A stretch of 64,000 bases of DNA from Methanococcoides orientis (lineage in GTDB: Archaea > Halobacteriota > Methanosarcinia > Methanosarcinales > Methanosarcinaceae): assembly GCF_021184045.1 (NCBI RefSeq), contig NZ_CP073710.1, forward strand, positions 2,118,685-2,182,684. The letters are read 5' to 3'. The notes below the pieces were generated by a model that saw nothing but the letters and a program-made list of their open reading frames with translations, was not told the DNA's origin and did not search any database. Positions 7,469 to 27,555 of the stretch are shown piece by piece. Position 1 is the first letter of the stretch. Every line of letters starts with the position of its first letter. Both the position numbers and the translations under genes were made by a program.

Positions 7469-8791
7469 ATGGATATAGAAGGCTATGCAAGAAAAGGACT
7501 TCGAAAGAATGATCCTGAACTTGAGGACAAACTGACAGAACGTATACTTGAGATAAAGGACACAACCCCTGAACACGCCAGGTCACTTGCAAAAGCAGCT
7601 ATTGTAGAGGCAAAGGCCACACTTAATGTCGAAGGCGATGTGCTGACATCAACTGTCTCCGGTGTGAGCATGGGTGAATTTGGTGTAGGTTCCCGTGGAC
7701 TGGGGGATTTCTACGCACATGAGAAGCTCGCAGAGGTCATTGGAAAGACCAGTGCAGCGGTTGATACATCCCATCTTGACGATTCAGGTGCTATCCTGAA
7801 CGAGACCGGGAATGGGTATATAATTATTACAATTGATGGGATACACTCTCGTCTTAGCGATTTTCCTTTCCTTGCAGGTTTCCACGTGGCCCGTGCATCC
7901 CTGCGTGATGTGTACGTGATGGGTTCCCGTCCTGTGGCGCTCCTGTCCGACATCCACGTTGCCGATGATGGCGATGTTGCCAAGATCTTTGACCACATTG
8001 CGGGAATTACAACGGTGTCCGAACTTACAGGCATCCCTCTTGTAACGGGAAGCACTCTCCGTATCGGCGGCGATATGGATATCGGTGAGCGTATGACCGG
8101 TGGTGTTGGTGCAGTTGGTACGGCCACAGACCTTACAGCCCGCATTCAGACACAGGTTGGAGATGTTATTCTTATGAGCGAGGGTGCAGGCGGTGGGACA
8201 GTTTCCACTGCAGCGCTTTATTACGAGATGCATGATGTGGTTGATGAGACCATCAACATCAAATTCCTCGAAGCATGCGAGGCCCTGATCGCATCCGGTC
8301 TGACAAAGCATGTGCATGCAATGACAGATGTGACCAACGGTGGTATCCGTGGGGATGCAAAAGAGATCTCACGAACTGCAGGTGTCAAGCTTGTCTTCGA
8401 TGAGTCGAAGATGCGTCCGCTTGTCAATCCGAAAGTTCTCGATATGTTGGAAAAGCTGGAGATCGACTACCTTGGCGTATCACTTGATGCATTGCTCGTT
8501 ATCGCTCCAAGGGAATATGCAGACGATATTATGAAGACTGTCAGGGACGCAGGCGTTGAGATCGACATCATCGGAGAAGTTGTCGAAGGCAGCGGTGCAG
8601 AGATAAACATTGATGGAAAAATGTGTGATTTCACCCCGCGCTTCAGGGAATCAGCTTACACCCCTATCAAAAAGATGATCGGAGATACAGAGCCAAGGGA
8701 CTTTGAAGAGATGAAGCTTGCAGTGGATAATGCTGCAAATGAAGCCATTGATAAGAAAAGAAAAGTTATAGAAATGATAAAAGGGAAGTAA
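7469..8791 (+). CDS. AIR-synthase-related (PurM/HypE/SelD superfamily) protein
   Basis: The 440-residue protein has the two-domain PurM superfamily architecture. An N-terminal ATP-binding domain contains DSGAI and a glycine-rich VTGSTLRIGGDMDIGERMTGGVG stretch; a C-terminal domain has the conserved MTDVTNGGIRGD segment, typical of HypE and AIR synthases. An extra helical region of about 75 residues precedes the core. Members phosphorylate or activate carbonyl or carboxyl groups with ATP, but the substrate of this archaeal subgroup is not known to me. The ATG at 7469 is preceded by GGAGTGA. It starts 17 bases after hisH ends, which alone does not prove a histidine-pathway role. I do not assign it as PurM or HypE proper. 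Confidence 0.8.
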   Translation: MDIEGYARKGLRKNDPELEDKLTERILEIKDTTPEHARSLAKAAIVEAKATLNVEGDVLTSTVSGVSMGEFGVGSRGLGDFYAHEKLAEVIGKTSAAVDTSHLDDSGAILNETGNGYIIITIDGIHSRLSDFPFLAGFHVARASLRDVYVMGSRPVALLSDIHVADDGDVAKIFDHIAGITTVSELTGIPLVTGSTLRIGGDMDIGERMTGGVGAVGTATDLTARIQTQVGDVILMSEGAGGGTVSTAALYYEMHDVVDETINIKFLEACEALIASGLTKHVHAMTDVTNGGIRGDAKEISRTAGVKLVFDESKMRPLVNPKVLDMLEKLEIDYLGVSLDALLVIAPREYADDIMKTVRDAGVEIDIIGEVVEGSGAEINIDGKMCDFTPRFRESAYTPIKKMIGDTEPRDFEEMKLAVDNAANEAIDKKRKVIEMIKGK

Positions 8792-23937: not shown

Positions 23938-24024
23938 GTCTGGTACAGGAGAAAGGAAGGGCTGGCACCACCTTCCAGTTCTTTGATACTGGATTATATT
24001 CTGAAATCCCGATCTGCTGATTAA
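23938..24024 (+). pseudogene. 3' remnant of a relative of the small membrane protein gene at 27205
   Basis: Fourteen bases after the metV stop an open frame without a start reads VWYRRKEGLA, then a variable stretch, then SLILDYILKSRSAD and a TAA stop. The last 29 codons of the intact gene at 27205-27555 read VWYRRKEGLA, a variable stretch, then LILDHLLSSRSNDK. The DNA GTCTGGTACAGGAGAAAGGA is shared exactly by both. Nothing upstream of the valine resembles the rest of the gene. This is best read as a truncated copy left at the edge of the accessory region. Its stop overlaps the stop of the leftward winged-helix gene. Confidence 0.75.
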
Positions 24025-24752
24025 CTAGCTAAAATGGCAGGTTCGGATTCCGATATAACTCTTTCCACATCTGCCTTTATTGTCGGACTAATAAAGCATC
24101 TTTTGTATTTCCCATCGTTTTTAATATCTACAAGTCCTTCATTGTTCATGTCACTAATATGCCAGTGCACAGTACTTTTGTCCAGACAAAATTTCTGAGT
24201 TAGGTCCTGATTTGTTATTCCCGGTTCACGAAGAATGGAAATCAAAATGAATTTTCTTGTATCATTTCGAAGGAAGAATGCAATTTTTTGTTCTGTGTCG
24301 GAGTGTTTATAAGAATTCTTAAAAATCATTACCACTCTTCCTTTCCTTACACATTTTACTTTGTTGTAAATCTGAAGCATTTTCAAATGGTATTTGATAG
24401 TACCTCTGTTCAATTTGAGTTGTCTTTCAATGTCGGATATTGTAGTTCCAGGATTAGCTGTTATAAATTCGAGAATTCCATCCCGATTTTGATTTTTGCA
24501 GTTTTCTTTTACTCTTCCGAGCAATAAAGGCAGGAACTTGTAAACAGCTAGCGAGGCACCCAATAACCCGGAGATATAGGCTATTTGAAGGGATAACGGG
24601 ATTTCCCAGAAAGTCAGAGTGGTGGTGGCGCCACCTTTATACATGTCCATGTCAGGATCAGGATCTAAAATAATTTCATACTCGCTTGCAGTGGCTAAAG
24701 CGGAACTGCAAACGAGTATGAACAGTAATAATAGAATCCATAAATTTTTCAT
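24021..24752 (-). CDS. Membrane-anchored regulator with two winged-helix domains
   Basis: The 243-residue protein has an N-terminal signal or membrane helix (about 3-20), a short external acidic segment with DPDPDMDMYKGG, a second hydrophobic helix (about 50-75), then two cytoplasmic winged-helix domains. The first has TTISDIERQLKLNRGTIKYH (about 102-121) and the second has ITNQDLTQKFCLDKSTVHWH (about 178-197). Paired winged helices of the ArsR/MarR type on a membrane anchor are common in Methanosarcina. This suggests a one-component transmembrane regulator that senses outside and binds DNA inside. It follows the exported-protein gene by 17 bases, so the two are probably one operon. Ligand and target are unknown. 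Confidence 0.75.
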   Translation of the reverse strand: MKNLWILLLLFILVCSSALATASEYEIILDPDPDMDMYKGGATTTLTFWEIPLSLQIAYISGLLGASLAVYKFLPLLLGRVKENCKNQNRDGILEFITANPGTTISDIERQLKLNRGTIKYHLKMLQIYNKVKCVRKGRVVMIFKNSYKHSDTEQKIAFFLRNDTRKFILISILREPGITNQDLTQKFCLDKSTVHWHISDMNNEGLVDIKNDGKYKRCFISPTIKADVERVISESEPAILAS

Positions 24753-24769
24753 AACACTGGTAATAATTT

Positions 24770-25192
24770 TCAGATATAATAATCTTCTGTACCTGAAACA
24801 CTATAACCATAAACCTCATGATGCCATGTTCCGATGTCAATTCCATCTGAATTTCTTATCGCAAATTTAATTCTTCCATCGATGACACCATCGGAACTGT
24901 CATAGTATGTTCCGATTAACTGGCCACTCGGAGTGTGCACTTTTAACCTGAGCGAATCGCTTGTATCGCCCCAATTCAGATCAACATATAAAGCAGTTGT
25001 GTAGGAACTGATCGGTACACCATGCCAGTTTGTTTCTCCCTGTGTTATAGTGGTAGTTACCCATCTTGGTGTAATCGTAATGTCTGACTTGACAGGAACG
25101 ATGGTATATCCGTTGTCCTGACTGGCGGTAGCTGCGGCAAAAGATACCGTTATAAGCATTACCATTAGTAGTAATCCAATTTTTCTGATCAT
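24770..25192 (-). CDS. Small exported protein upstream of membrane winged-helix regulator
   Basis: The 140-residue product has a clear signal peptide (MIRKIGLLLMVMLITVSFAA) and a beta-rich mature part with three tryptophans. Its C-terminal half (LRLKVHTPSGQLIGTYYDSS...GTWHHEVYGYSV) resembles the edge of PPC-like secreted domains, though I would not assign one. GGAGGATAT gives a strong ribosome binding site before the ATG. It is the first gene of a two-gene unit with the membrane regulator and may be its external sensor or ligand-binding partner, which is inference. The intergenic region upstream holds a perfect inverted repeat. Confidence 0.7.
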   Translation of the reverse strand: MIRKIGLLLMVMLITVSFAAATASQDNGYTIVPVKSDITITPRWVTTTITQGETNWHGVPISSYTTALYVDLNWGDTSDSLRLKVHTPSGQLIGTYYDSSDGVIDGRIKFAIRNSDGIDIGTWHHEVYGYSVSGTEDYYI

Positions 25193-25248
25193 CTATATCC
25201 TCCGAAATTTTACAATTCATCTTGTAAAAAAACAGGATATAAGTTTTG

Positions 25249-25294
25249 TGTCCATATCATCCAACTGAAAAGGAACAGTTGGATGATATGGACA
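25249..25294. repeat. Perfect 19-bp inverted repeat between divergent genes
   Basis: TGTCCATATCATCCAACTG (25249-25267) is followed, after the eight-base loop AAAAGGAA, by its exact reverse complement (25276-25294). It lies between two divergent TATA-like tracts: AGGATATAAG at 25234-25243 (read leftward toward the exported protein/regulator pair) and TTATATTTATAC starting near 25297. The location just upstream of the leftward TATA box suits an operator for a dimeric regulator; a hairpin role in RNA is the alternative. Confidence 0.7.
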
Positions 25295-25350
25295 GATTAT
25301 ATTTATACAAAGTCAACTCAGGAAAATAAGACATCAAAAAGATGTTTGAT

Positions 25351-25388
25351 GGAGTTCAAATAATCGGTTTCATGTGTATTTGAACTCC
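25351..25388. repeat. 11-bp inverted repeat upstream of secreted-protein promoter
   Basis: GGAGTTCAAAT (25351-25361) and ATTTGAACTCC (25378-25388) are exact reverse complements separated by 16 bases. A TATA-like ACATATTTAAAAC at 25421-25433 follows, about 50 bases before the ATG at 25474, so the repeat sits just upstream of the likely promoter of that gene. An operator is plausible but unproven. Confidence 0.5.
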
Positions 25389-25473
25389 ACGAGCCCTGAG
25401 GCATTGCATTGTTGGTTTTGACATATTTAAAACTTGCTTGTGCCTCTGGAGTAAATTGAATGAGGTAAATAAA

Positions 25474-25986
25474 ATGAAAAGTAAAGGAATTAGAATTTGG
25501 TCACTACTCATGGCTCTCTTGCTTGTGAGCGTGTTGTCTGTATCCGCTGCTAGTGCAAATGAGATTTCCCAGAATGATTTAGAGCTAAAGAATGCAGAAT
25601 CATTAATTACCGACAAAAGTACTGCCTCTGGCTTCGTAATGTTTTCAGATAAATCATCTACAAGATCAGGAGTTACTTATGATTTAGATGTCACCATCAC
25701 TGGAGTTAAATCATCTGGAAGTTACTGGTATAATCTTAATGGTGATTCTACTGCAACAGCATCTGAAAACATTGATTATATTCAGGCATCTGGGACACTC
25801 TTAGGTCCAACACTTACTGCCAACTATGGACCAGTAGGTCGCTACAATGATGATTCAGTAGTTGCATCTGGAACATTAACTGATTACTATTTCTGGCAAA
25901 CAACATATCAAAATCAAGGACATGGAATGTATAGAATAGATGGAGTGAATTATTATCTCGACTCGACAGCATCTATTACGACATAA
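25474..25986 (+). CDS. Exported protein of unknown function
   Basis: The 170-residue product has an N-terminal signal peptide (GIRIWSLLMALLLVSVLSVSAASA, ending about residue 27) and a Ser/Thr/Tyr-rich mature part with alternating beta-like pattern (SGVTYDLDVTITGVKSSGSYWYNL). It has no cysteine, no membrane anchor at the C-terminus and no sorting motif. I do not recognise a family. TGAGGT precedes the ATG, and a TATA-like tract is at 25421-25433. Being divergent from the exported-protein/regulator pair, it is a candidate target of that regulator. Base composition is AT-rich like the rest of the island. Confidence 0.65.
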   Translation: MKSKGIRIWSLLMALLLVSVLSVSAASANEISQNDLELKNAESLITDKSTASGFVMFSDKSSTRSGVTYDLDVTITGVKSSGSYWYNLNGDSTATASENIDYIQASGTLLGPTLTANYGPVGRYNDDSVVASGTLTDYYFWQTTYQNQGHGMYRIDGVNYYLDSTASITT

Positions 25987-26026: not shown

Positions 26027-26725
26027 ATGAGTAAAAAGGAATTAGCCATTCTTCCTTTTTTTATTTTTTTTGTAATTACTATTTGTTTATATGGTTGTTT
26101 TGCAAATGAACAATCGAAAGTAAATCTGAATACTACTTCAGCTAAAGAAAGTCTTCTTAATGGGACCAGTATTTACGGTTATGAAACAGCATATGCTGAT
26201 AAAAGTTTGAAAAATATATCATCAATTTCGATGGATGAAAGTCAACCGGAGATCCTAGAAATTGAAAAATTAAAAGTTCCAGGTACAATTGCTATGGCAA
26301 TATCAGAGTCCTATCCTTTCAAAAGAAATGAGGTTTGGAACAAGTCATATATTAGAAAAGGAGATTCTCTTAAAAGCTATGTTTTTCTAGCAAATTATAA
26401 AAATGAATCACATGATTTTTTGATATTTAACTTAGTTAATTACACGCAGAAGCCAAGTTATTTTGGAGAAAATTCATCTACAATTCACCATCTGACGTTG
26501 GAAAAAGATAGTTATATTGTTTTTACATTAGAAACACAACCCTTCGAACAAGTTGGAGAGGAGCTTTTTCAAGTAGCTGTAGTAATCGATCCTTATGAAG
26601 CCGAACCGACTGGCAAATACGGATTTTTGGATACGGGCTATTTATACCTGTCTCCAAAGGTATTGGTAAATGTAACTAAGACAGAGATGGAAACAAACAT
26701 ATTTATGAATGATGTGAGGGTGTAA
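26027..26725 (+). CDS. Putative exported lipoprotein-like protein
   Basis: The 232-residue product has a hydrophobic N-terminus (LAILPFFIFFVITICLYGCFA) with Cys24 at its end, which resembles a lipobox although the preceding LYG is not a perfect match. The mature part has many N-glycosylation-type sequons (NTT, NGT, NIS, NES, NYT, NSS, NVT), as is usual for exported proteins of this group. Residues ~105-205 look like a beta sandwich. GGAAGGTG precedes the ATG. The next gene starts three bases after its stop, implying co-transcription. No family recognised. Confidence 0.6.
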   Translation: MSKKELAILPFFIFFVITICLYGCFANEQSKVNLNTTSAKESLLNGTSIYGYETAYADKSLKNISSISMDESQPEILEIEKLKVPGTIAMAISESYPFKRNEVWNKSYIRKGDSLKSYVFLANYKNESHDFLIFNLVNYTQKPSYFGENSSTIHHLTLEKDSYIVFTLETQPFEQVGEELFQVAVVIDPYEAEPTGKYGFLDTGYLYLSPKVLVNVTKTEMETNIFMNDVRV

Positions 26726-26727
26726 AT

Positions 26728-27021
26728 TTGAACAAGAACACAATCGAATGGGTACTCATCGGAATTATAGTTGTAACAATAATCACAACAGCATTTTATA
26801 TGGGTCAACTATTATGGGGTATAGCTGCAATAGCTATTGTTTTTTGGCTTTTCATGTTATTTGATTGCCTTCAACGAAGCACAGAAAATTTTCCTCGCAC
26901 AGGAGAACATGAGAAATTGATCTGGCTAATCGCCTTAGTTTTCTTGAATTTTATAGGTGCAATACTGTATTACTATATGGTCAAAATACAGGGCAATAGT
27001 CTAAAAAAACCAGAAGAGTAG
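26728..27021 (+). CDS. Small membrane protein with PLDc_N-type domain
   Basis: The 97-residue protein has three hydrophobic segments. The middle-to-end part, with FWLFMLFDCLQR then EKLIWLIALVFLNFIGAILYYYM, matches the pattern of the phospholipase D-nuclease N-terminal (PLDc_N) membrane module. Here it occurs alone without a nuclease domain, which is common for this module. The start is a TTG two bases after the previous stop, with GAGGGTG upstream. It may be a small integral partner of the exported protein encoded before it; function is unknown. Confidence 0.65.
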   Translation: MNKNTIEWVLIGIIVVTIITTAFYMGQLLWGIAAIAIVFWLFMLFDCLQRSTENFPRTGEHEKLIWLIALVFLNFIGAILYYYMVKIQGNSLKKPEE

Positions 27022-27204: not shown

Positions 27205-27555
27205 ATGTACTCAATATCAAAAAGAGTAACAAATTGTAAAGAGTTAATGGGCTCAGCCAGTCTTGAAGGAATAACTGAAGTCCCTGTGCATGGAGGTTTC
27301 CATATCGATTACATCCTGAAAGAAGAATTGTGGCGCTCAGTAGCAGTACTCCCTCTCTCTTTTTTGGGGATTTGTGTGCTCGATGAAGCCGGAGTTATTT
27401 CAATCAGCGCTTTATCAATTTTCATTCTGGCTTTCTTTGTAACGTTTGTCCACGTTTCATTCATGGTCTGGTACAGGAGAAAGGAAGGTCTGGCATTCTC
27501 TAACATTACGTTGATACTGGACCATCTGTTAAGTTCAAGGTCAAATGATAAGTGA
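27205..27555 (+). CDS. Small membrane protein of unknown function (intact copy)
   Basis: The product has up to 116 residues with two hydrophobic segments (LWRSVAVLPLSFLGICVLDEAGVI... and SALSIFILAFFVTFVHVSFMVWY) and a charged C-terminus. The ATG at 27205 sits directly on a TATA-like tract, so translation may instead begin at ATG 27247 (102 residues, MGSASLEG). Its last 29 codons have a second, truncated copy at 23938-24024 beside metV. No family is recognised. An inverted repeat immediately upstream may control it. The duplication suggests local rearrangement in the history of the island. Confidence 0.6.
   Translation: MYSISKRVTNCKELMGSASLEGITEVPVHGGFHIDYILKEELWRSVAVLPLSFLGICVLDEAGVISISALSIFILAFFVTFVHVSFMVWYRRKEGLAFSNITLILDHLLSSRSNDK

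Follow-up and report, generated by a model that had tools for sequence, protein, structure and literature searches.

The locus studied here raises the question of how a methanogenic archaeon could carry a signal from outside the cell to its DNA without a kinase or a response regulator, and which genes would be placed under such control. The window, i.e., the whole stretch of DNA that was analysed, comprises 64,000 nucleotides of Methanococcoides orientis (NZ_CP073710.1, positions 2,118,685 to 2,182,684). The original prediction for this locus described a small exported protein coupled to a membrane-bound regulator, here named EXP and REG, with an inverted repeat in front of the pair and a divergent gene for another exported protein. 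The reading that we favour, with moderate confidence, is that REG works with EXP, its partner on the outside, to control a regulon of secreted proteins, and that a leader RNA would add a further gate at the level of translation. The gene pair consists of:

24021 to 24752, minus strand: REG, membrane-anchored regulator of 243 aa (open reading frame).
24770 to 25192, minus strand: EXP, exported protein of 140 aa (open reading frame; signal-like helix, then a beta-jelly-roll).

Both open reading frames confirm the coupling that had been described, with REG downstream of EXP after a gap of exactly 17 bases, and this gap, together with the transcript known for MM2440-41 (see below), points to co-transcription in an apparent operon. 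REG matches the winged helix-turn-helix (wHTH) families HTH_24 and HVO_0163_N in Pfam, and reaches no cut-off in NCBIfam. In its AlphaFold model, two transmembrane helices (aa 2-20 and 53-84) enclose an acidic outer stretch (aa 21-52, low confidence), followed by two confidently modelled wHTH domains (aa 88-145 and 152-221) and a C-terminal helix. Pfam and the model support the predicted architecture of an outside part, a membrane helix and a double wHTH. The sequence is rich in K/R after helix 2 and rich in D/E in the stretch before it, and because of this charge pattern the wHTH domains are placed inside and the D/E stretch outside. Cleavage of the N-terminal helix, named in the prediction as an event that would leave no outside sensor, loses its force against this topology, since the stretch between the helices lies outside either way.

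Neither EXP nor T3, the product of the divergent gene, matches any family in Pfam, and a profile of EXP gave no significant match among PDB sequences. EXP is modelled as a beta-jelly-roll with moderate model confidence (pLDDT 70). Among solved structures it comes closest to jelly-roll domains at the C-terminus of subtilases, namely Tk-SP (E 7e-4), KP-43 and the P domains of furin and Kex2.

The spread of the pair was followed in a family sample of 112 Methanosarcinaceae genomes and a phylum sample of 393 genomes. Within the family, 66 of the 112 genomes contain a REG match and 59 an EXP match, and REG lies directly 3' of EXP on the same strand at 86 of the 101 EXP matches, mostly after gaps of 20-50 nt. 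The co-occurrence that the prediction proposed as its check is therefore found, and it extends to distant families of the phylum: EXP matches occur in 117 of the 393 genomes, from 36 genera, and at nearly all of the distant EXP loci inspected REG comes after EXP, a signal-peptide gene usually being nearby. This distribution bears on the role of EXP, which could also be an effector that is co-transcribed with its own regulator, REG then sensing alone via its outer stretch. We consider this unlikely. The jelly-roll fold does resemble accessory domains of secreted proteases, and some REG paralogues, e.g., G000:465202, have no recognisable EXP alongside; however, no effector gene at the EXP-REG loci comes close to EXP in conservation, and EXP is coupled to REG throughout the phylum, whereas the effector genes swap freely at these loci. 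EXP is treated below as the outside partner of REG.

A circuit from outside to the DNA without a kinase had been regarded as new, which holds for the present variant but not for the general arrangement, known from ToxR/ToxS and ArnR/ArnR1. ToxR/ToxS of Vibrio likewise combine a membrane-bound wHTH regulator with an extracytoplasmic partner and dispense with kinase and response regulator (PMC13042144, PMC7265457). In ToxR, however, the wHTH is N-terminal and cytoplasmic and the periplasmic domain C-terminal (PMC13042144, PMC7265457), whereas REG has the reversed order and two wHTH domains, and no sequence relation between ToxR/ToxS and EXP-REG is shown. ArnR and ArnR1 of Sulfolobus acidocaldarius are archaeal membrane-bound one-component activators of surface-structure genes; ArnR is phosphorylated by ArnC, and the available part of the source describes no exported partner gene (PMC6396743). 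The HTH of ArnR is in its N-terminal region (PMC13286277), whereas in REG the membrane helices come first.

The further claim that no system of this form had been described had to be given up, as the MM2440-MM2441 pair of Methanosarcina mazei, a target of sRNA162, is homologous (PMC3510493). In genome G082, a REG homologue (2828626-2829282; E 5.8e-22, 29% over residues 3-215) lies directly downstream of an EXP homologue (2829317-2829598; 57% over residues 46-138, E 7.6e-27). Rfam places sRNA162 at 2827951-2828140 (214.8 bits) and, in agreement with the published arrangement, finds another copy at a distance of 5.4 kb, which identifies the locus as of the M. mazei type. The REG and EXP homologues of G082 correspond to MM2441 and MM2440. 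According to PMC3510493, MM2440-MM2441 form a bicistronic mRNA with a short 5' UTR, coding for a hypothetical protein and an ArsR-type regulator; the start of MM2441 is masked by sRNA162, which uses its first 65 nt to bind the leader of MM2442, a neighbour of MM2440-41 with an experimentally shown 5' UTR of 184 nt. The gene order, the single transcript, the ArsR-like regulator and the MM2442 leader are common to both systems. The difference is that MM2440 is called hypothetical and MM2441 a regulator of methyltransferase genes, the effects linked to it in M. mazei concerning these and not secreted proteins, whereas the window contains no sRNA162 above threshold (33.7 bits against a gathering threshold of 78). 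The text of PMC3510493 does not use the terms “transmembrane” and “signal peptide”, and the parts consulted describe neither a palindrome nor a multi-copy leader. Relatives of sRNA162 are also present in G076, G098, G100 and G102, so that Methanosarcina has more than the two published M. mazei copies.

Between the EXP-REG operon and the divergent gene, the following elements were located:

25237 to 25244, minus strand: TATA box of the EXP-REG operon, CTTATATCC (conserved in an alignment of 12 intergenic regions; adjoins the left half-site).
25249 to 25267, minus strand: putative REG half-site for EXP-REG, CAGTTGGATGATATGGACA (inverted repeat, alignment).
25276 to 25294, plus strand: putative REG half-site for the divergent gene, CAGTTGGATGATATGGACA (inverted repeat, alignment).
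25300 to 25307, plus strand: TATA box of the divergent gene, TATTTATA (sequence, alignment).

The perfect inverted repeat announced ahead of the pair thus consists of two outward-facing half-sites of 19 bp, each abutting a TATA box. The order of TATA box, half-site, spacer, inverted half-site and TATA box recurs upstream of EXP at 12 loci from three genera, and because of this recurrence with a spacer that is almost always 8 nt (once 6), the repeat is not a product of chance; by its pattern, it resembles a conserved operator placed between two divergent promoters. At two loci (L104 and L109), the half-sites are separated by about 100 and about 70 nt and each still abuts its own TATA box, which favours a site in the DNA over an RNA hairpin. 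A terminator or RNA hairpin was rejected, as the palindrome lies between the divergent TATA boxes and outside both predicted transcripts, and its halves are found singly or far apart. A match of the Rfam sRNA162 model over the palindrome (25171-25301) is sub-threshold and probably driven by the hairpin. In more distant families (L250, L251, L247), there are palindromes with related letters and different spacers.

The genome of M. orientis itself contains three exact half-sites and four with one mismatch; when up to three mismatches are allowed, there are 57, as opposed to nine for the reversed pattern. An exact orphan half-site at 1386820 precedes another leader with an exported-protein gene. 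Given that half-sites also stand alone, a single chain with its two wHTH domains may recognise one asymmetric half-site. The paralogue REG2 has three one-mismatch sites, GATGAAATGG, in its vicinity, which would fit a distinct sequence preference for each REG. REG2 (L077, 7191-7940) has no recognisable EXP and is surrounded by the variant half-site CAGTTCGATGAAATGGNCA, with variant sites at 8033, 11335 and 14821 before lipoprotein and membrane genes. The module as a whole is flanked by near-identical stretches, TCTGGTACAGGAGAAAGGAAGG..CTGGCA, at 23939-23990 and 27463-27515, which may be left over from a duplication or an exchange of cassettes.

The position of the half-sites also bears on the sign of regulation. 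Archaeal activators usually bind upstream of the BRE, and as the half-site lies wholly upstream of it, activation is favoured over repression. Under the opposite assumption, which appears doubtful to us, REG would sit on the palindrome as a repressor and block TFB/TBP at both divergent promoters until an outside signal releases it. Many ArsR-like wHTH proteins are repressors, the structural matches of the REG fold include ArsR and MarR repressors, and the half-sites stand directly against BRE/TATA; on the other hand, all aligned copies of the site lie entirely upstream of the BRE, and even single half-sites hold the same phase to the TATA box. REG is therefore regarded here as most likely an activator. 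The side of the divergent gene carries the following features:

25324 to 25449, plus strand: structured leader RNA (covariance model R1, 106.2 bits).
25330 to 25346, plus strand: leader helix P1, 25330-25335 with 25341-25346 (6 of 6 pairs with two-sided changes).
25350 to 25389, plus strand: leader helix P2, TGGAGTTCAAATA / TATTTGAACTCCA (9 of 9 modelled pairs with two-sided changes; inverted repeat I10).
25398 to 25446, plus strand: leader helix P3, GAGGCA at 25398-25403 with TGCCTC at 25441-25446 (near-invariant).
25462 to 25465, plus strand: Shine-Dalgarno sequence GAGG of the divergent gene (sequence).
25474 to 25986, plus strand: T3, divergent exported protein of 170 aa (open reading frame, ATG start).
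26027 to 26725, plus strand: exported or lipoprotein-like open reading frame of 232 aa after T3 (presumed on the same transcript from its spacing).
26728 to 27021, plus strand: membrane protein of 97 aa with a PLDc_N domain (open reading frame, Pfam).

The divergent gene begins with a leader of about 125 nt, which had been missed in the first reading, and T3 starts at the ATG at 25474, the earlier listed TTG at 25438 falling inside this leader. The element was found by aligning intergenic regions, which revealed conserved hairpins ahead of unrelated genes, and was then described by the covariance model R1. This model matches in 67 of the 112 Methanosarcinaceae genomes with up to 25 copies per genome, and also in some distant genomes of the phylum. 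In an alignment of 140 distinct sequences, 90.7% of the cells pair and two-sided changes occur in 17 of the 23 pairs; the two-sided cells number 369, compared to 117 after shuffling and 22-92 in slid controls. AGGCA and UGCCU hardly vary across the leaders, which is why the core pairs of P3 show no covariation themselves. The leader copies tested against Rfam 15 reached the cut-off of no family. The distance from leader to start codon is nearly always 21-31 nt. The leader is thus a covarying structure upstream of a set of genes, as is demanded of a cis-regulatory RNA, and it ranks as a strong candidate for an RNA family new to the archaea.

The TGCCTC strand of P3 can alternatively pair with the Shine-Dalgarno sequence. 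In free folds of 98 leaders, P3 is mostly formed (96% in the leader of the window) and the Shine-Dalgarno sequence has a mean unpaired fraction of 52%; blocking the 5' strand of P3 lowers this to 6%, because UGCCUC then pairs with GAGG, whereas random blocks give 46%. These calculations make the leader a candidate translational switch, a computed possibility in which the capture might be made by the conserved GCCC that immediately precedes AGGCA. Translational riboswitches and other structured leaders share with it a conserved 5' leader and an alternative pairing able to hide the Shine-Dalgarno sequence; here, in contrast, there is no known ligand and no Rfam match, and about 40 unrelated secreted-protein families lie downstream.

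A crude signal-peptide test had a background of 42% in neighbouring open reading frames, and a stricter test was used instead. With this test, a signal-peptide gene follows 116 of the 131 leader copies fetched, compared to 3 of 44 open reading frames of the window (p = 9e-24) and 126 of 533 neighbouring ones (p = 7e-44), p values that are indicative only, as the leader copies are related. The mature proteins behind the leaders form the roughly 40 unrelated clusters mentioned above and have a similar signal peptide in common. Pfam identifies Peptidase_C39_2 and M12 metallopeptidases among them, and a zinc phospholipase C below the cut-off; others resemble, by eye, trypsin-type proteases and halocin-C8-like peptides. 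As the products include likely peptidases and bacteriocin-like proteins, a role in nutrient scavenging or antagonism is suggested. The leader-borne genes at L215, L211 and L180 code for cysteine-rich C-termini like that of halocin C8 (by eye).

The divergent gene had been counted as the third part of the module. An exported-protein gene is indeed present, but it is not a fixed component, and its role as a fixed target was rejected because the family differs at nearly every locus. T3 has high-identity relatives in only two other Methanosarcinaceae genomes; in other genera it is 80-93% identical, next to different partners. The divergent gene is an interchangeable member of a large leader-bearing family of secreted-protein genes. 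The 97-aa PLDc_N protein, of which a relative follows a different leader-borne gene (L064, 9452-9742), may have an immunity-like role. Small membrane proteins also follow secreted-protein genes, be these related or different, as immunity proteins would, at L065 (9147-9335) and L073 (11527-11712).

Operator and leader are linked. A half-site with up to three mismatches is present in 63 of about 130 leader promoters, compared to 2 of 2,600 shuffles, and 58 of these 63 sit 29-33 nt before the leader. In a comparison with the best 150 leader matches, the leader is divergently upstream at 29 of the 106 REG loci. About half of the leader copies have other promoter elements instead of the half-site, and since other leaders carry a different palindromic element, the leader extends beyond the REG regulon and is not exclusive to it. 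Leaders without the half-site at L197, L198 and L177 are preceded by a promoter element of a second class, TTAATGAATGTTAATCAG..CTGATGAAAAATTCATC. An upstream “cold box” is common to nine conserved, cold-induced sRNAs of Methanolobus psychrophilus (PMC5378194).

The leader might instead be mainly a target of an antisense sRNA such as sRNA162, or an mRNA stability element, with no trigger of its own. The leader model falls in the 5' UTR region of MM2442 and overlaps there in the genome with sRNA162, the first 65 nt of which bind this leader, another domain masking the start of MM2441 (PMC3510493). Against this, sRNA162 is patchy, with above-threshold matches in 16 of the 31 genomes of the M. mazei genus and the sub-threshold score in the window, whereas the leader has its own covarying structure and the wider distribution in the family given above; we rate the antisense or stability role as a minority possibility. 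It is improbable that leader and signal peptide are chiefly a recombination cassette for unrelated secreted genes with the RNA structure secondary, as the unrelated mature proteins behind one leader and similar signal peptide, and the T3 relatives of 80-93% identity beside different partners, would allow, since the strong strand-specific covariation and near-constant spacing to the start codon indicate that the leader functions in the RNA.

Regulation of a secretome by EXP-REG, with the leader as a second gate, thus remains the preferred reading. It builds on the observed conservation, architecture, operator pattern, RNA covariation and gene association, and the steps could be as follows. EXP and REG would together make up a transmembrane regulator of two proteins, with neither a kinase nor a response regulator, in which EXP, on the outside, binds the short acidic outer stretch of REG or hands over a signal, and this input would change how the wHTH pair of REG holds the DNA. 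REG would bind the 19-bp half-site CAGTTSGAYGATNTGGNCA just upstream of BRE/TATA. At its own locus, the two outward half-sites would allow REG to control the EXP-REG operon jointly with the divergent gene for a secreted protein, and single half-sites elsewhere would recruit other secreted-protein genes into the regulon, so that the pair probably switches on many different ones. In the leader, P3 would keep the Shine-Dalgarno sequence free, and capture of its 5' strand would let the 3' strand sequester it. We infer the DNA binding, the sign of regulation, the contact between EXP and REG, the signal and the trigger of the leader from these patterns.

To our knowledge, little is known about how methanogens decide what to secrete. 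The findings connect a membrane regulator present in many families of the phylum to a clear operator and to a large number of secreted proteins. Extended to the whole phylum, which we propose only tentatively, EXP-REG would read the outside and bind modular half-sites, and a new multi-copy class of switchable leaders would gate the translation of dozens of unrelated secreted proteins, which are exchanged while the promoter, leader and signal peptide before them stay constant. What looks like an ordinary pair of hypothetical genes would then be part of a wide regulatory system, namely an archaeal arrangement resembling ToxRS but with the order of domains reversed, together with a modular operator and a new candidate RNA family before a large secretome. 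Genetic methods exist for Methanosarcina, in which the proposed steps can be tested. In M. mazei, the findings would offer a new frame for MM2441 as a membrane regulator of exported proteins and for sRNA162 as an antisense partner of the leader.
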